NCBI GenBank assembly: GCA_022180725.1
Contig: BQMO01000009.1
Location: forward strand, 62,001 to 126,000
Direction: 5' to 3'
Length of the DNA stretch: 64,000 nt
DNA from: Phycisphaerae bacterium
Lineage (GTDB): Bacteria > Planctomycetota > Phycisphaerae > Phycisphaerales > UBA1924
Below the pieces are notes generated by a model. It searched no databases and was not told the DNA's origin. It worked only from the letters and a program-made list of their open reading frames with translations. Numbering within the stretch: position 1 is the first letter of the stretch; each line of letters begins with the position of its first letter. The position numbers and the translations under genes are program-made. Shown piece after piece: positions 4,338-27,625 of this stretch.

Positions 4338-5228
4338 ATGTCCCGCTACGGCCTACTCGCGCTCGATCTTGACGGCACGCTGCTTGACAGCCGCGGGCGG
4401 GTCTCGCCGCGGAACAAGGCCGCCGTGCGGGCGGCGCGAGACGCGGGGATGCGGGTGGTCGTGTGCACCGGGCGAGGCCTGGCCGAGTGCCGGCACGTGC
4501 TCGAACAGATCGACCAGTCCGATCCGGTCGTCGTGGCGGGCGGGTCCATCATCGCCGATCCGCAGACCGCCCGCACGCTGCACCGATTTCCCGTGCACGT
4601 GCCGCTCGTCGAGCGCACGGTGCGCGTGCTGCTTGGGCGGGGTCACCCGGCGCTGGTCCTGAAAGACCCGCACGACGCCGGGTACGACTACCTCGTGGTG
4701 CAGGGCGAGGCGGCGCACCCGCTCGACCCTGTCACCGAATGGTGGTTCGCATCGATGAACGTGCGCGTGCGGTTCGCGCGGCGGCTCGAGGAGGACGCTC
4801 ATCCGGAGCACACGGTGCGCGTGGGGGCGTGCGGCTTGTCGGGTGTGCTGGGTGAGATTCGCCGCGACCTGCTCGAGGCCGCCGAGGGCGAGGCCGTCGT
4901 GCATTCCTTCCCCGCGGTGGTCGCCCCCGAGCATGCCAGCCGCTGCCCGGATGGGCAGAGTCTGCACATCCTCGAACTGTTCCACGCGCGGGCAACGAAG
5001 TGGGCGGCGATCTCGCACCTGGCGGCGGGGTGGGGCCTCGAACCCACCGATATCGCGGCTATCGGCGACGAGGTGAACGACGTCTCGATGATCGCCGGGG
5101 CGGGCCTCGGCGTGGCGATGGGCAACGCCGTGCCGGTCGTGCGCGACGCGGCCAAGGTGCACACCGCCGGGAATGACGACGACGGCGTGGCGGTCGCCGT
5201 CGAGCGGATTCTGACCGGTGCGTGGTAG
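4338..5228 (+). CDS. HAD-superfamily (Cof-type, class IIB) phosphatase
   Basis: This 296-aa protein carries the HAD signature at its very start, ALDLDGTLLD (nucleophile and acid/base Asp). HAD motif II is at VVCTGRG, and the C-terminal motif IV is GDEVNDVSMIAGAGLGVAMGN. The large cap between residues ~85 and 190 is the C2B type found in Cof/YbjI-like sugar-phosphate and nucleotide phosphatases. The true substrate cannot be read from sequence. The start at 4338 puts the catalytic strand at residue 8, as usual for the family. It is followed 14 nt later by rsmA. Confidence 0.88.
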   Translation: MSRYGLLALDLDGTLLDSRGRVSPRNKAAVRAARDAGMRVVVCTGRGLAECRHVLEQIDQSDPVVVAGGSIIADPQTARTLHRFPVHVPLVERTVRVLLGRGHPALVLKDPHDAGYDYLVVQGEAAHPLDPVTEWWFASMNVRVRFARRLEEDAHPEHTVRVGACGLSGVLGEIRRDLLEAAEGEAVVHSFPAVVAPEHASRCPDGQSLHILELFHARATKWAAISHLAAGWGLEPTDIAAIGDEVNDVSMIAGAGLGVAMGNAVPVVRDAAKVHTAGNDDDGVAVAVERILTGAW

Positions 5229-6088: not shown

Positions 6089-7133
6089 GTCGGCCACGCC
6101 CTCGTCACACACACCGCGCCCGGGCGGAACCACGCCCCTGCCGCGTGGCGACGCCCACGACCTGGCCGCGCTGCTCGGCCCGGTCCTGCTCCGCGTCACC
6201 GAGGGGCGACTCGGGCCGATCTCCTGGTTCCGCTCGGCCCACCAGCGAGGCGGGGCCGCGACGGGGTTCTCCACCTGGCAACTCCCCAACGGCTCGACGA
6301 CTCCCGCGTTGGTGAAACTCCCCATCGGCCCGGTCGAGCATCGCTGGACGACCTCGCTGGGCACGTGCGACCCGGCTCAATGGAACGAGCGATGGTCGAT
6401 GGCGATCCCCACGCCGCGCGTGCTCGCCTCGGGCACCGATCTGGGCGGGTACGACCTGGCGTGGCTGGTGGTGGAACGGCTGACCGGCGCGGGGCTGCCG
6501 CAGACGCTGGATGAAGAAACCGGGCTGGACCTTCTCCGGGCGGCGGCGGATTTTCAGGCGGCGGCGATGAAGGCCGCCCCGCTGGGGCCGCGCCCCGCAA
6601 GCCCGGACTGGGATCGCACCCTCGAGCGCGTTCGGGAGTTGATCCGCGCCGACGCGTTCCCCGAGGCCTCGCGCTGGGGCGAACTCATCCGCAAGGTTCG
6701 CCGGGCGCTTCCGATCCTTCAGCACCGATGGGAATCCCGCCCGATCAACGCCTGGTGCCACGGGGACCTGCACCCAGGGAACGCCATTCGGCGCGTCGCA
6801 CCCGACGGCGACGATCCAGCGGGGCGGCACGGGTGCGTGCTCATCGATCTGGCGCTGGTCCACCCCGGGCACTGGGTCGAGGACGCCTTGTATTTGGAGC
6901 GGCAGTACTGGGGGCACGAAAAGCAACTGGGTCTGAAACCGGTGCCGACGCTGGCGCGATTACGCCGCGAGCGGGGCCTGCCGGCGGACGACTCGTACGG
7001 CGACCTGGCGATGGTGCGGCGGGTGCTGATGGCGGCGTGCGCTCCGGCCCTGCTGGACCGGGAAGGGAACCCGAAATACCTGCGGGCGGCGCTGGAGATC
7101 ATGGAGCGGTGCCTGCCTCAGGCCGTGCGGTGA
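6081..7133 (+). CDS. Aminoglycoside phosphotransferase (APH)-fold kinase
   Basis: The 350-aa protein has the protein-kinase-like APH fold. A nucleotide-binding N-lobe is followed by the catalytic loop CHGDLHPGNA (catalytic Asp and metal-binding Asn). The downstream LIDLALVHPGHWVEDALY takes the place of the Mg-binding D-x-D/E segment of the family. Members phosphorylate many small hydroxylated molecules, so antibiotic resistance should not be assumed. Its overlap with rsmA (8 nt) is suggestive only, since aminoglycosides and RsmA both concern 16S rRNA. An independent promoter-like element lies in the end of rsmA. Confidence 0.85.
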   Translation: MSESATPSSHTPRPGGTTPLPRGDAHDLAALLGPVLLRVTEGRLGPISWFRSAHQRGGAATGFSTWQLPNGSTTPALVKLPIGPVEHRWTTSLGTCDPAQWNERWSMAIPTPRVLASGTDLGGYDLAWLVVERLTGAGLPQTLDEETGLDLLRAAADFQAAAMKAAPLGPRPASPDWDRTLERVRELIRADAFPEASRWGELIRKVRRALPILQHRWESRPINAWCHGDLHPGNAIRRVAPDGDDPAGRHGCVLIDLALVHPGHWVEDALYLERQYWGHEKQLGLKPVPTLARLRRERGLPADDSYGDLAMVRRVLMAACAPALLDREGNPKYLRAALEIMERCLPQAVR

Positions 7134-22970: not shown

Positions 22971-24146
22971 ATGGCGCTCGACTCCATCACCGCGGGAGAA
23001 TCGCACGGCCCGGGGCTGGTCACGATCGTGTCCGGGTTGCCCGCCGGGCTGGGTGTGGACGAGGCGTTCATCAACGCCGAACTCGCCCGGCGACAGGGCG
23101 GCTTCGGGCGGGGCGGCCGCATGGGGATCGAGGACGACCGCGTTGAGGTGCTCTCGGGAGTACGGAACGGACGCACGATCGGCTCGCCCGTGGCCTTGCT
23201 CATCCGCAATAAGGACTCGCGCCTCGACGACGCAAAGAAGACCCCGCCCATCCATAGGCCCCGCCCCGGGCACGCCGACCTCGCCGGGGCGCTCAAGTAC
23301 CTGACGACCGACTGCCGGGGCGTGCTGGAACGCGCCAGCGCCCGCGAGACGGCGGCCCGTGTCGCCGCGGGCGCGCTCGCGCGGCTCCTGCTCCGCGAGT
23401 TCGGCATCGAGACCTTCGGCCTGGTCCGCTCGATCGGCGGCGTGCGCACCGACGTCGAAGTAACCGCTCGCTCCTGGCGCGGGATGGTTGCGCACCGCGA
23501 CGCGAGCGAGACGTACTGCCCCGATCCGGCGGCCACGGCGAAGCAGGTCGAGGCCATCCGCGCCATCAAGCACGACAAGGACACGCTCGGCGGGCAGGTC
23601 GAGGCGCACGTCTTCGGCTGCCCCCCGGGCCTGGGGTCATGCATGGATTGGCGCGACAAACTCGACGCGCGCCTCGCCTACGCCGTCATGAGCGTGCAGG
23701 CTATCAAGGCCGTCGAGATCGGGCTGGGCACAGGCGTCGCCGACCGCCCCGGCAGCCGCGTGCACGACCCGATCCGCTTCGACCCCTCGACGCGCGACAC
23801 GCACACCCTGGGCTTCGAGCGCGACACCAACAACGCGGGGGGCACCGAGGGCGGCATGTCCAACGGGCAGCCCCTCGTTATCCGCGCAACCATGAAGCCC
23901 ATCTCCACGCTGCTGCGGGGCATGCCCAGCGTGGACCTGAACACGAAAGAGGCTCAGCAGAGCCAATACGAGCGCAGCGACCTCTGCGCCGTGCCCGCGG
24001 CGAGCGTGGTTGTCGAGAATGTCGCCGCGTTCGAGGTCGCCCGGGCGCTGCGGGCCAAGTTTGCGGGCGATTCGCTGCGCGAGATGCGGGCGCAGTTCGA
24101 CGCGTACCTGGCGGCGGCCCGGTCGCTCCCCGCTCAGGATTCGTGA
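22971..24146 (+). CDS. aroC: Chorismate synthase
   Basis: AroC makes chorismate from EPSP, the last shikimate-pathway step, using reduced FMN. The 391-aa product shows the family signatures: GESHGPGLVTIVSGLPAG at the start, RQGGFGRGGRM, HRPRPGHADL, RASARETAARVAAGA, and GGTEGGMSNGQP. Length is normal for the type with a longer C-terminus. Chorismate feeds aromatic amino acids and also the futalosine menaquinone route represented by mqnA at 54420-55280. The gene end overlaps the convergent permease gene by 13 nt. Confidence 0.96.
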   Translation: MALDSITAGESHGPGLVTIVSGLPAGLGVDEAFINAELARRQGGFGRGGRMGIEDDRVEVLSGVRNGRTIGSPVALLIRNKDSRLDDAKKTPPIHRPRPGHADLAGALKYLTTDCRGVLERASARETAARVAAGALARLLLREFGIETFGLVRSIGGVRTDVEVTARSWRGMVAHRDASETYCPDPAATAKQVEAIRAIKHDKDTLGGQVEAHVFGCPPGLGSCMDWRDKLDARLAYAVMSVQAIKAVEIGLGTGVADRPGSRVHDPIRFDPSTRDTHTLGFERDTNNAGGTEGGMSNGQPLVIRATMKPISTLLRGMPSVDLNTKEAQQSQYERSDLCAVPAASVVVENVAAFEVARALRAKFAGDSLREMRAQFDAYLAAARSLPAQDS

Positions 24147-25561
24147 GTGCGGCCCGTCGTTGCGGCGCCGACCACCCGCCGCCACACCCAGTACGCCGGC
24201 ACCCCCGCCGCGATGACCGCCAGCCACCGCACACTCGGCCCGGGCGACTCCAAGACCGAGAGCACCGTCATGCCGACCGCCGCAAGGACAAAGACCGCGG
24301 GCACGACCGGGTACCCCGGGCACCGGAAGGGTCGAGGCGCATCGGGCCGGCGCACGCGGAGCACGAACACCGCCCCCGCCGCCAGCCCGAAGAAGACCCA
24401 CATGAGGAACACGTACCCCTCGGCGAGACTTTGAAATGTGCGCATGGTGACGAGGGCAAGGATGGAGAGGGCCAACTGCACCCAGAGCGCCACGGCCGGC
24501 GTTTCGTGGCGAGGGTGGACGCGTCCGAGGATGGCGAAGAGCAGGCCGTCGCGCGATTGCTGGTACGTCACACGGGCGCCGGTCATAATCGACCCGTGCG
24601 TGGAGCCGAAGGTGGAGAGGGCGATCAGCGCCGCGGCCACCACGCCCGCCGAGGCTCCCACCACGCGCTCGAGCAGCGCCGGGGCGAGCGTGTCGAGCGT
24701 GCGCATGTGTTCGAGCGGGATCACGGCGATGTACGCGGCGTTGACGAAGACGTACAGCGCGATGACCGCGAGCGTGCCGAGCAGGTAGACCCGGGGCAGC
24801 GTGCGTTGCGGGTCGCGCACTTCGCCCGCGATGGCCCCCACGTCGCTCCAGCCGTCGTACGTCCACATGATGCCCGCCATGACGGGGACGATCGCCGCGT
24901 AGAACGACCCCGGGGCGGGGCCGGGCTTGAAGTTTGAGAGGTCTCCCGCGCCCAGGCAGAGCGGCACGAGAACGATGGCGGCGACGGCGGCGAACTTGAT
25001 GGCCGTCAGCGTGCCCGCGACTACCGTCCCCAGCCGAACACCACGCACGTTGATCGCCGTCAGCACGGTCAGCATGAGGGCGGTGGTCAGCATCACCGCC
25101 CAACCCGACCCGAGCACGCTGTCGAGCCGCGCGCCAAGCCCGGCGCTCAGCCACTCGGCCAGGTCGCGCCAATCGACACCCAGCGCGTGGTGCAGGTGCT
25201 CGCCGAAGACCACGGCGATGCCCGCGGCCCCGAGCGGCTTCATCAGCAGCATGTACGACCAACCGAACACAAACGCCGGCAACCGCCCGAACCCTTCGCG
25301 AATGAAGACGTAGACGCCGCCGGATTGCGGGTGCATGGTGGCGAGTTCGGCGAAGGTGAGCGCGCCGCAGAGCGCGAGCACCCCGCCGAGCACCCAGAGC
25401 GCCAGGATGACCGAGGGCGAGCCGAGGTACTGCGCGATGATCGGCGGCTGGCGGAAGATGCCCGACCCGATGACCACGCCGACCATGACGCCCACGGCGC
25501 CGAAGAGGCCAATGCGGCGGGGAAGATCCGAAGGGTTGCATGTCGTGTTATGAATCCGCAT
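24134..25561 (-). CDS. APC-superfamily amino-acid permease
   Basis: The 475-aa protein has about 12 membrane helices. The N-terminal signature GVMVGVVIGSGIFRQPP contains the unwound-helix GSGIF motif that binds amino-acid substrates in APC/LAT-type carriers. PQSGGVYVFIREGFG in the third helix is also typical. Substrate and direction (proton symport or exchange) cannot be read from sequence. The ATG at 25561 has only a weak GGAAG close by. It is divergent from the lipoprotein genes across a 65-nt spacer. Confidence 0.9.
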   Translation of the reverse strand: MRIHNTTCNPSDLPRRIGLFGAVGVMVGVVIGSGIFRQPPIIAQYLGSPSVILALWVLGGVLALCGALTFAELATMHPQSGGVYVFIREGFGRLPAFVFGWSYMLLMKPLGAAGIAVVFGEHLHHALGVDWRDLAEWLSAGLGARLDSVLGSGWAVMLTTALMLTVLTAINVRGVRLGTVVAGTLTAIKFAAVAAIVLVPLCLGAGDLSNFKPGPAPGSFYAAIVPVMAGIMWTYDGWSDVGAIAGEVRDPQRTLPRVYLLGTLAVIALYVFVNAAYIAVIPLEHMRTLDTLAPALLERVVGASAGVVAAALIALSTFGSTHGSIMTGARVTYQQSRDGLLFAILGRVHPRHETPAVALWVQLALSILALVTMRTFQSLAEGYVFLMWVFFGLAAGAVFVLRVRRPDAPRPFRCPGYPVVPAVFVLAAVGMTVLSVLESPGPSVRWLAVIAAGVPAYWVWRRVVGAATTGRTHES

Positions 25562-25590
25562 CTTCCATATTCACAGATACTTGCGCTCTC

Positions 25591-25619
25591 TTGCAGACAT
25601 GGTCCGCTGCTGGTACGCT
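25591..25619 (+). promoter_or_regulatory. Putative promoter, TTGCAG-17 nt-TACGCT, lipoprotein operon
   Basis: TTGCAG at 25591-25596 and TACGCT at 25614-25619 are spaced by 17 nt. The hexamer ends 7 nt before the ATG at 25627 with no Shine-Dalgarno, consistent with a leaderless transcript. Confidence 0.5.
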
Positions 25620-25626
25620 AACTGCC

Positions 25627-26043
25627 ATGAAAACGCATGTACCACTGTACCTGTCTCTAGCGACCTCTCTTGTTGTTATCGGGTGCACGGCCCAGCAGCA
25701 TGCACGGAGCGTGGCTCGCGCGGATGAAGAGGGCACCCAACTGACCGTTGGCAATGTACAACGATCCATCGACAAAGGTATGACAGGTGGACAGGTTGCC
25801 GAGGCACTCGGATCGCCAAATATCGTATCAACCGACGAGAACGGTCGTGAAGTGTGGATTTATGATCGGTTCGCGACGGAAGTAGTTGCATCGTCGTCGA
25901 GCTCCGGCTGGTATTTCCTCATCGGGGCCGCCGGGCAATCATCCGGAGCGGCGAGGTCGTCGCAACGATCGCTGACGGTCATCGTGAAGTTCGACGAGGC
26001 CAAGCGTGTACGCGACGTTGCGTATCACTCATCAAAGTTTTAG
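25627..26043 (+). CDS. Lipoprotein with SmpA/OmlA (BamE)-like domain
   Basis: The 138-aa product has a lipoprotein signal (MKTHVPLYLSLATSLVVIGC) with the lipobox V-I-G-C, predicting a mature N-terminal Cys. The segment IDKGMTGGQVAEALGSPNIV followed by EVWIYDRF fits the BamE/SmpA/OmlA fold (G-M-T-x-x-x-V-x-x-x-LG-x-P, then W-x-Y). Such proteins sit on the outer membrane and often support protein assembly. A Ser-rich loop interrupts the last strands. It leads a set of three small lipoprotein-like genes. Confidence 0.8.
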   Translation: MKTHVPLYLSLATSLVVIGCTAQQHARSVARADEEGTQLTVGNVQRSIDKGMTGGQVAEALGSPNIVSTDENGREVWIYDRFATEVVASSSSSGWYFLIGAAGQSSGAARSSQRSLTVIVKFDEAKRVRDVAYHSSKF

Positions 26044-26078
26044 ATTGCCAGGTTGGAGTCAATCGTAAGGGGGACCGC

Positions 26079-26618
26079 ATGCCGGAGAATCGTGGACGCG
26101 TAGTGCCGATCGCTGTTCTTTGTGGCATGTATTTCGTGTGGGGCGGGTGCGGCGGTGGAATCCCGAAGAACGCACTGCTGCTCTCGCCCCAGAGCCTTGA
26201 GAATCGCCAACTCCAAACACGACGCTTTGACTCTTCGGATGAGCGTCGAATCCTCGCCGCAGCGGTAGGCCTCGCCCAGGATCTCGGGTACAACATCGAG
26301 AACTCTGACGCAAAACTCGGAGTCGTGGTCGGTTCCAAAGACCGGGACGCCACCGAAGCGGGACAGGTTGTCGGTGCCGTGCTCATCGCGGTGCTCACCG
26401 GCGTCGCGACCCCGGTAGACAAGAATCAAAAAATCCGCATCAGCATCGTGACACATCCGGTCGGCGGCAGCACGGCCGTTCGCGTCACGTTCCAGCGGAT
26501 CGTCTGGAATACCCAAGGGCAGGTATCCAAACTTCAGTTCATCAACGACCCGGCGATCTATCAGGAGTTCTTCGAGAAACTTTCGAAGTCGGTCTTTCTG
26601 GAGGCGCACAAGATATGA
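26079..26618 (+). CDS. Putative lipoprotein, paralogue of the next gene
   Basis: The 179-aa protein has a hydrophobic leader ending VWGGCGGG, a plausible but imperfect lipobox. The mature part contains LQTRRFDSSDERRILAAAVG followed by LAQDLGYNIENSD, which matches LRSIQTRAFDTTDRTKML and LQDLGFVVDSAN in the next gene. A Gly/Val-rich hydrophobic stretch (AGQVVGAVLIAVLTGVATPV) interrupts the domain and might insert into a membrane; the paralogue lacks it. AAGGGGG lies before the ATG. It overlaps the next gene by 4 nt (ATGA). Confidence 0.7.
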   Translation: MPENRGRVVPIAVLCGMYFVWGGCGGGIPKNALLLSPQSLENRQLQTRRFDSSDERRILAAAVGLAQDLGYNIENSDAKLGVVVGSKDRDATEAGQVVGAVLIAVLTGVATPVDKNQKIRISIVTHPVGGSTAVRVTFQRIVWNTQGQVSKLQFINDPAIYQEFFEKLSKSVFLEAHKI

Positions 26619-27040
26619 ATCGCCCTGTACTACACGTTTTGGCCGTATGCCTCTCGGGCGTATCGCTCGCCGCGTGTCAAACATCGCAGCGTCAAATCAT
26701 GGCTTCTGAAGAGAGCCAGGTCAGACTCCGCAGTATTCAGACTAGAGCTTTCGACACGACCGACCGTACCAAAATGCTCCGCACCGCTATCGCCACACTG
26801 CAAGATCTCGGATTTGTCGTCGACAGCGCCAACGAAGAAATCGGCACGGTGACCGCCACGAAACTCGACGGATACGCGCTCCGCATGACCGTCACCGTCA
26901 GGCCTCGGGGTTCTACACAACTTCTGGTTCGCGCAAGCGGGCAATACAACCTCCAGGCGGTCGAAGCCCCGGAGCCGTACCAAAACTTCTTTGCCGCACT
27001 CGAAAAAGCGATCTTTCTCACCGCGCACCAGGTTGATTAG
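26615..27040 (+). CDS. Putative lipoprotein, short paralogue
   Basis: The 141-aa protein carries a clear lipoprotein signal with lipobox L-A-A-C (residues ~18-21). Its mature domain (IQTRAFDTTDRTKML, LQDLGFVVDSANEEIGTVT, then ALRMTVTVRPRGSTQLLVR) is a compact alpha/beta fold shared with the preceding gene. The C-terminal helices also align (PYQNFFAALEKAIFLTAHQ against IYQEFFEKLSKSVFLEAHK). The family name is not known to me. It ends by overlapping the convergent GNAT pseudogene by 4 nt. Confidence 0.75.
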   Translation: MNRPVLHVLAVCLSGVSLAACQTSQRQIMASEESQVRLRSIQTRAFDTTDRTKMLRTAIATLQDLGFVVDSANEEIGTVTATKLDGYALRMTVTVRPRGSTQLLVRASGQYNLQAVEAPEPYQNFFAALEKAIFLTAHQVD

Positions 27041-27625
27041 CCTCCAATCGCACAACGTGTGTTCAACGTGGCACGCACCCCAGCCCACTCCTCCGCGAGA
27101 ATGCTGTACATCACCGTGTCGCGGTAGGCCCCGTCGCGCATCACCATGTGTCGCCGCAGCGTGCCCTCTTCCTTCGCGCCGAGTTTGAGGATCGCCGCTC
27201 GGCTCGCCGCGTTCCGCGCGTCGGTCTTCAGCTGCACGCGGATGCACCCCAGCGTGTCGAACGCGTGGGCGAGGAGCAGGAGTTTGCATTCGGGGTTGAC
27301 GCGCGTGCTTCGCACCGCCTTGGCATAGAACGTCGCCCCGATCCAGCCCCCGATGGGCCGAGCGAATGTCCAGATAGCATGTCGCGCCCACCACGCGCCC
27401 GCTCGCCCGCTCGATCACCGCGAACGGCCGGGACGTCGGGTCGGCCAGGCGCAGGCGGGCGTAGAGCGCGGCCTGGGCCTCGGGCGGACCGTCGCACGCG
27501 TAATCCGGCGAGAAGTACCGAAACGTGTCGGCGTCGATGGCTTCGGCCAGAACAGGAACGTGGGCGATCGTCAGGGGTTCAAGGCGAACGTATCGGCCAT
27601 CGAGCGTGACGGGTCGAACCTCCAT
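27037..27625 (-). pseudogene. GNAT (RimJ-type) acetyltransferase, frameshifted
   Basis: The N-terminal part (MEVRPVTLDGRYVRLEPL... to ATCYLDIRSAHRGL) lies in one frame. The rest (WIGATFYAKAVRSTRVNPE... onward, with LLLLAHAFDTLGCIRVQL and NAASRAAILKLGA) lies in another. The switch occurs near 27341-27352. Relatives normally read L-E-I-G-W-T-W-I-G here, so about five residues are missing and the frame is lost. Members N-acetylate amines or protein N-termini. GAGGAG precedes the ATG. A sequencing error could mimic this, but both the missing residues and the shift would have to be explained. Confidence 0.75.

Follow-up and report, generated by a model that had tools for sequence, protein, structure and literature searches.

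A putatively mobile trio of lipoprotein genes joining a BamE relative to two BamC/Flpp3-like helix-grip proteins in a Phycisphaerae genome

Three small adjoining genes in a 64,000-nucleotide stretch of a Phycisphaerae genome (contig BQMO01000009.1; the whole stretch is hereafter called the window) appear, from comparison of their sequences and surroundings, to form a self-contained mobile cassette, putatively an operon, that recurs in many phyla next to no fixed neighbour. They encode a BamE-family lipoprotein (P1) and two paralogous lipoproteins (P2 and P3), and we tentatively favour, with rather less than even confidence, the reading that the products would form an outer-membrane lipoprotein complex that assists outer-membrane assembly in the manner of BamC and BamE. 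The anatomy and mobility of the trio are themselves well supported. The features concerned are the following, in the numbering of the window:

25627..26043, + strand: P1, 138 aa, BamE-family lipoprotein, lipobox cysteine C20
25684-25686, + strand: codon of the lipobox cysteine C20 of P1
26079..26618, + strand: P2, 179 aa, the longer paralogue, predicted helix-grip lipoprotein, lipobox-type cysteine C24
26358..26405, + strand: hydrophobic stretch of P2, residues 94-109, AGQVVGAVLIAVLTGV, mostly helix between two strands in the AF2 model
26615..27040, + strand: P3, 141 aa, shorter paralogue of P2, predicted helix-grip lipoprotein, lipobox cysteine C21
25562..27036, strand not given: approximate extent of the apparently acquired segment (the flanking frames touch in the genome G003; low GC)
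24134-25561, - strand: permease-like gene (named by eye), its 5' end bordering the trio segment
27037 onwards, - strand: GNAT acetyltransferase-like gene (named by eye), its 3' end bordering the trio segment

An earlier note on this DNA had placed three small lipoprotein genes at 25627-27040, the last two overlapping by ATGA, and both the interval and the overlap (of P2 with P3) are correct. All three genes are intact on the + strand, 35 nt separate the stop of P1 from the start of P2, and the start-stop overlap of P2 and P3 is conserved in 52 of 79 cases; no sigma-70-like promoter was found within 25400-27200. The lipobox-type cysteines listed above are conserved in nearly all alignment rows (76 of 77 for P1, 80 of 81 for P2, 81 of 82 for P3), even if the -3 residue of the P2 lipobox, a Trp, is unusual, and the residue following the cysteine (+2) is Asp in none of these 76, 80 and 81 rows. 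In E. coli a +2 residue other than Asp leads to outer-membrane sorting. Because the cysteine is kept and +2 is never Asp, P1, P2 and P3 would all be outer-membrane lipoproteins by the E. coli rule.

The description of P1 as BamE-like is borne out by profile comparison, though the window protein lies just under the Pfam cut-off (PF04355; 22.8 bits against 23.2, and 18.1 bits in the whole-genome search) and matches the NCBIfam BamE model at E 1.2e-5 with 25.2 bits, for a cut-off of 93. Each of the 77 proteins in the P1 alignment, that of the window among them, matches BamE at E<=1 (best 2.9e-7), and a PDB search with the P1 profile retrieves BamE chains at E 6e-6; because of these two results we regard P1, on sequence grounds, as a BamE homologue. 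P1 thus resembles BamE (SmpA/OmlA) in being a lipoprotein homologous to it by profile, but departs from it in a variable Gly/Ser-rich loop, in a terminal Phe present in 77 of 77 rows, and in lying beside genes of P2/P3 type in nearly all loci, most of which were found through P2. A reading of the terminal Phe as an outer-membrane protein beta-signal was dropped because the residues preceding it do not fit the consensus.

P2 and P3 are alike at 27% identity in BLASTP (E 2e-17) and at E 2.4e-34 in profile-profile comparison, so that the paralogy proposed earlier holds and the two proteins, far from falling into unrelated families, are old duplicates of a single one. When 79 sequences are placed in one tree, P2, P3 and four single genes separate with the minimum of two group changes, though just 6 of its 75 inner branches are starred. 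The family, which the earlier note had not recognised, is not one known to the standard collections: neither Pfam nor NCBIfam gives a match to P2, and P3 has sub-threshold matches only, among them DUF4995 (PF16386) at 16.4 bits against a cut-off of 28.4, which leaves the window P3 below the membership cut-off. This match spans residues 8-61, signal peptide included, and recurs at E<=1 in 16 of 82 P3 members (best 2.4e-5). Neither window protein matches PF12092 (DUF3568/Flpp3), nor PF06804 (BamC) at E<=10; for the homologues of P2 and P3 the survey covers the 25 most frequent Pfam families, out of 48 and 50 respectively. Sequence searches of the PDB gave a best E of 0.88 for P2 and nothing for P3 as single sequences, and best E values of 0.073 (P2) and 0.14 (P3) with profiles.

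The longer paralogue had been thought to have gained a hydrophobic stretch, a view that we abandon, since residues are present there in all 81 P2 rows: the segment K87-D114 holds 25-47 residues in 81 of 81 rows, with a median of 65% A/V/I/L/M/F/G. Measured over comparable segments, P2 rows have 33-55 residues from K87 to S122, and the distance from K83 to the strand that follows (T92) is 6-17 residues in P3 rows (82 of 82). Because the stretch is found in every P2 row and is much shorter in P3 rows, it can be taken from the alignments as a fixed difference between the paralogues, without polarity; the relatives with two genes are likewise longer at this place, by residues that do not clearly correspond to those of P2.

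Structure prediction of the pair, a check suggested earlier, gave AlphaFold2 models with a mean pLDDT of 92.2 for P2 (81-row alignment) and 89.1 for P3 (82-row alignment), each consisting of one helix-grip domain. The P3 model has N-terminal helices followed by strand-helix-four strands-helix, and the P2 model repeats this order with one more strand and an extra helix (94-107) between two strands. In Foldseek comparison with the PDB, chains of BamC or BAM complexes account for 13 of the 16 P3 hits at E<=0.001, including the first 12 (best 9.6e-7), and for 11 of the 12 P2 hits (best 1.3e-5), with moderate TM-scores of 0.2-0.5 in the BamC rows; the best matches are to the N-terminal domain of BamC. 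VIA-align ranks first the lipoprotein Flpp3, which we take to be a DUF3568 protein (Z 11.2 for P3, 10.1 for P2), BamC 2laf following with Z 10.1, rmsd 3.0 and 95 aligned residues for P3 and Z 9.3, rmsd 4.0 and 105 aligned for P2, while other rows, among them a plant Bet v 1-like protein and AMPK, score within 1 Z of it. The safe statement is that the modelled fold of P2 and P3 is helix-grip, BamC/Flpp3-like. The helix-grip is a common fold, a consideration that counts against the BAM reading.

BamC (NlpB; PF06804) shares with P2 and P3 a helix-grip domain on a lipoprotein and is their best Foldseek match. It is described as carrying a pair of helix-grip domains in tandem after an unstructured N-terminus that binds BamD (PMC3359395), an arrangement absent from our models, in which P2 and P3 have one domain each and the second BamC domain is missing. 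Their sequence similarity to BamC is not significant either: membership by sequence was rejected with an hhalign probability of about 6% against a 4-sequence BamC profile with signal peptides trimmed. The untrimmed comparison aligned signal peptides only, and trimming brought the expected register. The DUF3568/Flpp3 proteins are likewise helix-grip lipoproteins, going by VIA-align, from which the window proteins differ in having no PF12092 match.

Bet v 1-type ligand binders, CoxG and KA1 domains are also among the helix-grip matches, and DUF3568-type lipoproteins lie near the trio in three Omnitrophota loci (the Pfam check covering one of them). These observations favour a rather different function, in which P2 and P3 would bind lipid in their cavity and P1 serve as scaffold, the whole being a periplasmic carrier or sensor of lipids or hydrophobic ligands at the outer membrane with no contact to BAM. 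We consider this unlikely, given that P1 belongs to the BamE family, that lipid-transport families do not recur nearby and that Foldseek puts BamC before the ligand-binding relatives, although VIA-align does not.

The genes form a conserved unit. With P2 as query, GTDB genome contigs yielded 97 relatives, and 80 of these were retained as loci. The plain order P1-P2-P3 occurs in 68; beside it, three loci carry a further P2-P3 pair upstream (L052, L073, L076) and three have extra P3 copies (L050, L082, L083), while four end with the contig after P1-P2 (L043, L053, L056, L060) and two show P2-P3, one at a contig edge (L062) and one with 634 bases upstream devoid of a recognised P1 (L055). The order P1-P2-P3 is thereby found in 74 of the 75 loci uncut by a contig end, some reading frames being truncated in L051 and L066. 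Forty further loci were re-fetched from genome samples (Planctomycetota 8, Gammaproteobacteria 7, Alphaproteobacteria 5, Omnitrophota 20), a set that leaves out the window, the gamma- and alphaproteobacterial centres and the weakest match among the Omnitrophota (G1211), and that partly overlaps the first 80 in shared contigs. Among the 39 uncut loci (40 with the cut L168), 34 have P1-P2-P3, two of these with an extra P3; the others are a rearranged multi-copy version (L152), three planctomycete loci with P1 and one P2/P3-like gene (L142-L144) and one in which P1 is not recognised (L145). A two-gene form also occurs on a Vibrio replicon (L088). All loci from GTDB and the genome samples were found through P2, and they therefore show that P1 and P3 accompany P2. 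Scans of viral contigs with P1 and P3 returned the same contigs as P2 plus three cut by contig ends (L186, L198, L199), and P1 has two weak matches (E about 0.001) among 60 relatives of the present genome.

Over 85 loci the pairwise distances of P2 follow those of P3 with a correlation of 0.81; P1 gives 0.42 with P2 and 0.46 with P3, and the maximum in 500 permutations is 0.21. Seven close locus pairs give 21 gene-wise dN/dS values, of which 20 fall within 0.02-0.14 and the last is 0.41, an eighth pair being saturated; the median identity of the window proteins to the other 84 loci is 50-58%. Judged by order, distances and substitution rates, the trio is kept together under purifying selection, and among loci with P2 the possibility that its genes might not be co-conserved does not hold.

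Going by record titles, the trio spans about a dozen phyla, and in the groups sampled it is patchy. P2 matches were found in 9 of 392 genomes of Planctomycetota including the window (E<=1e-8), and at E<=1e-20, centres included, in 8 of 321 of the Gammaproteobacteria (class of the genome of L048), 6 of 337 of the Alphaproteobacteria (class of that of L015) and 21 of 193 of the Omnitrophota (phylum of that of L061), about 2-11% of the sampled genomes per group. The earlier note had advised looking for the three-gene order in other planctomycetes; a P2-type match is rare there, and three of the nine genomes have the two-gene form only. Because occurrence is patchy, the trio is suggested to be dispensable, a point that weighs against the BAM reading. 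No DNA match was found in E. coli genomes, and the literature within reach, which took in few subscription papers, held no description of the trio except for the unnamed one in PMC10272872.

In the present genome the trio seems to have been inserted by horizontal transfer into its lineage, a mobility that the earlier note had not noticed. Its GC content of 57.3% (window 67.8%) is matched by one of about 626 sliding windows of trio size, presumably the trio itself, and the GC3 of its genes is 0.59-0.70 against 0.88-0.94 in four neighbours. P2 was found in none of the 60 relatives searched, the own genome aside, their completeness being 71-100%. In the same-genus genome G003 (L095) the flanking permease and GNAT frames touch, the next gene matches and the trio is missing; this empty site is seen in G003 alone because the other same-genus permease stretches are short and without a GNAT match. 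Neither convincing flanking repeats nor a convincing tRNA were seen at the insertion, and the window has no pdif site.

Vertical descent of planctomycete lipoproteins, lost in most relatives and endowed here with no special mobility, would fit with the relative carried by 9 of the 392 sampled Planctomycetota and with a tree in which the window and seven planctomycete loci form a clade, which is 7.1 log units better than our quick tree of 85 loci and has a p-AU of 0.605. We nevertheless judge it very improbable in view of the absence of P2 from all 60 relatives, the empty site between conserved neighbours in G003 and GC and GC3 values far under those of the neighbours. The donor is another matter. 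The quick 85-locus tree placed the window in a Pseudomonadota-rich clade (29 rows, SH-aLRT 96), apart from seven of the other eight planctomycete loci, and the Pseudomonadota donor that it suggested was withdrawn, the planctomycete-clade tree being better and not rejected. Because of this constrained tree, and because the window falls in no starred set of the single-gene trees, no donor is claimed; in the 79-sequence tree two planctomycetes lie nearest to the window P2. The 85-locus tree mixes phyla, with 25 label changes against a minimum of 14 and 48 when shuffled, many of its rows being MAGs whose titles may mislabel contigs. The concatenated tree leaves out the truncated L051 and L066 and loci lacking one gene.

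Mobility is also apparent elsewhere. The Acinetobacter baumannii plasmid p4E072658 carries the trio among four sites of the pdif pattern, where none would be expected, two of which enclose the trio alone; in L086 the flanking sites lie at 4749-4776 (+) and 6327-6354 (-). This module has been described as 'three hypothetical proteins' (PMC10272872), which are the present trio, and the available part of that paper gives them no fold or function; the window copy differs in having no pdif site. In Azospirillum brasilense P2 and P3 were found on two plasmids, and the complete trio was checked and confirmed in one of them. Three scans of IMG/VR, whose contigs are predicted viruses, found 10 contigs in which profiles confirm at least part of the set, five of them complete.

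Among these, L181 is a Mu-like viral contig in which transposase, DNA-transposition, terminase and portal families surround the trio and a GC-rich hairpin followed by T's, terminator-like by eye, comes after P3. Terminase genes lie near P1 in L198 and L199, portal and endolysin families are matched in L178 and a reverse transcriptase in L182, an OLD-family nuclease adjoins the trio in L179, and L186 has methyltransferase and helicase matches; the phage-family search leaves out L177, L179 and L180. The 31-residue match of L191/L192 was not upheld by profiles and was dropped, as was the match of a phage P3 to a 'Cor superinfection exclusion protein', which covers residues 4-29, the signal peptide.

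No conserved flanking gene was found around 80 loci, the largest sequence cluster spanning six of them, and no Pfam family recurs more than three times among 108 nearest neighbours (135 listed at >=100 aa, 27 removed by hand without a fixed rule). At the distant loci L016, L059 and L064 a related gene resembling outer-membrane barrels lies upstream of P1 on the same strand; Pfam, run on two of these genes, matched that of L064 only. PADLOC matches among the 108 neighbours are scattered, with one or two members per model and no background for comparison, and on the window proteins PADLOC gave MzaB at E 0.014 for P1 only, and nothing for P2 and P3.

Carriage on viral contigs, the nuclease, methyltransferase and helicase beside some of these sets and the stand-alone pdif cargo would all suit lipoproteins of lysogenic conversion or plasmid cargo that obstruct or reshape a receptor in the outer membrane or the BAM pathway, keeping out other phages, bacteriocins or contact-dependent toxins as exclusion or immunity factors. 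BamE-like lipoproteins have been proposed as immunity proteins of polymorphic toxins targeting lipid head groups, rapidly evolving and coupled to their toxin (PMC12419801), and these share with P1 the membrane anchor, the BamE superfamily and mobile or conflict settings. P1 is unlike them in being conserved, coupled to P2 and P3 and without a recurrent neighbour. The identity and a dN/dS of about 0.1 do not suit 'rapidly evolving' proteins, no recurrent toxin partner can be named because there is no fixed neighbour, the PADLOC matches are as meagre as stated above, and the 50,697 phage records of INPHARED have no match to P1 or P2, the queries used. We therefore regard such a role as fairly unlikely.

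The reading as an accessory to outer-membrane assembly has to be set against the machinery of the hosts. The present genome has one Omp85/BamA match and a YfiO/BamD match, no BamC match at E<=0.1 and, besides P1, one weak BamE match (17.8 bits), none being above the cut-off. A clear canonical BamE is found in addition to the trio in 9 of 10 Pseudomonadota hosts, the exception being Roseomonas G445, a coexistence that further distinguishes P1 from BamE, and BamC is present in 4 of 10 trio genomes searched, namely 3 of 4 gamma- and betaproteobacterial hosts plus G449. Because the trio coexists with both proteins in carriers, it does not replace host BamE or BamC, which counts against the reading.

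Since the trio is self-sufficient, conserved and without a fixed partner, its target is most likely either the trio itself or some nearly universal component. The outer-membrane assembly machine is the most economical target, quite possibly though short of probably the right one, because one BamE homologue is combined with two lipoproteins of BamC fold. The earlier hint at an envelope-assembly role is thus strengthened as to fold, given that the best Foldseek match of P2 and P3 is a BAM lipoprotein, while as to function it stays at the level of inference. All three proteins would carry a lipid anchor and reside in the inner leaflet of the outer membrane, where P2 and P3 may pair as a heterodimer that P1 joins; at BamA, together with BamD in hosts that have it, the complex would serve as an accessory of BamC/BamE type, stabilising or altering the insertion of outer-membrane proteins, and a conditional advantage of this kind could select for the spread of the trio, partly via plasmids and phages. 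A more specific version, in which a BamC/BamE-layer counterpart spread by phages and plasmids docks as a mobile plug-in on the host BamA, changes the outer-membrane proteins made and so alters the surface of its carrier, for instance excluding competing phages or toxins, is doubtful, and we offer it as speculation.

In a 2012 survey of proteobacteria (PMC3359395) BamC was absent from alpha-, delta- and epsilonproteobacteria, a few OsmE/BamE-like matches were seen in delta and epsilon species, and the distribution of BAM accessory lipoproteins was mostly explained by lineage, rare lateral transfer being suggested for BamB. The trio, in contrast, is found in records titled as alpha-, delta- and epsilonproteobacteria, groups without BamC in that survey.

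A BamE homologue and two lipoproteins of predicted BamC fold thus travel as a unit across about a dozen phyla by record title, in a plasmid module and on viral contigs, under gene labels that have so far been hypothetical only. P2 and P3 represent a widespread and slowly evolving family, whose members in the window have no Pfam or NCBIfam match above cut-off. Azospirillum and Magnetospirillum are cultivable carriers in which the question of BamA can be tested, and if the trio does act at BamA, outer-membrane assembly would be a target of mobile elements.

The protein encoded by the first gene of the trio, the BamE-family lipoprotein P1, ends in a phenylalanine that is invariant in its family (77 of the 77 aligned P1 sequences, the window protein included) and is preceded by conserved tyrosine and serine residues. 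The corresponding codons and the gene flanking the trio on its 3' side lie as follows.

26014-26040, + strand: C-terminus of the P1 family, with the terminal Phe
27037-27625, - strand: GNAT acetyltransferase-like gene adjoining the trio, in two reading frames with a break near 27340

The counterpart of this GNAT-like gene in the same-genus genome G003 is a single frame (L095:2874-3515, in the stretch carrying the orthologous site from which the trio is missing). The two-frame state in the window would reflect either a frameshift of recent origin or a mistake in the assembly.

Other neighbours accompany the trio elsewhere. Upstream of P1, a Bacteroidota MAG (L016), Polynucleobacter (L059) and an Omnitrophota MAG (L064) each have a related outer-membrane-barrel-like gene, whose product is possibly a client or partner of the trio. 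Genes for DUF3568-type lipoproteins are found close to the trio in Omnitrophota (L074, L080 and L084), the one copy checked, that of L080, having a Pfam match. Two IMG/VR predicted viral contigs carry the trio, or the P3 end of it, next to an OLD-family nuclease gene (L179) or methyltransferase/helicase-type genes (L186).

The gene set itself also varies. P3 proteins of loci L019 and L050 bear long C-terminal extensions, and an alphaproteobacterial-class genome (L152) has a rearranged set of six family members on both strands. Three planctomycetes (L142, L143 and L144) and Vibrio (L088) carry a two-gene form, consisting of a BamE-like protein and one helix-grip-family lipoprotein, which possibly represents the state preceding the P2/P3 duplication.
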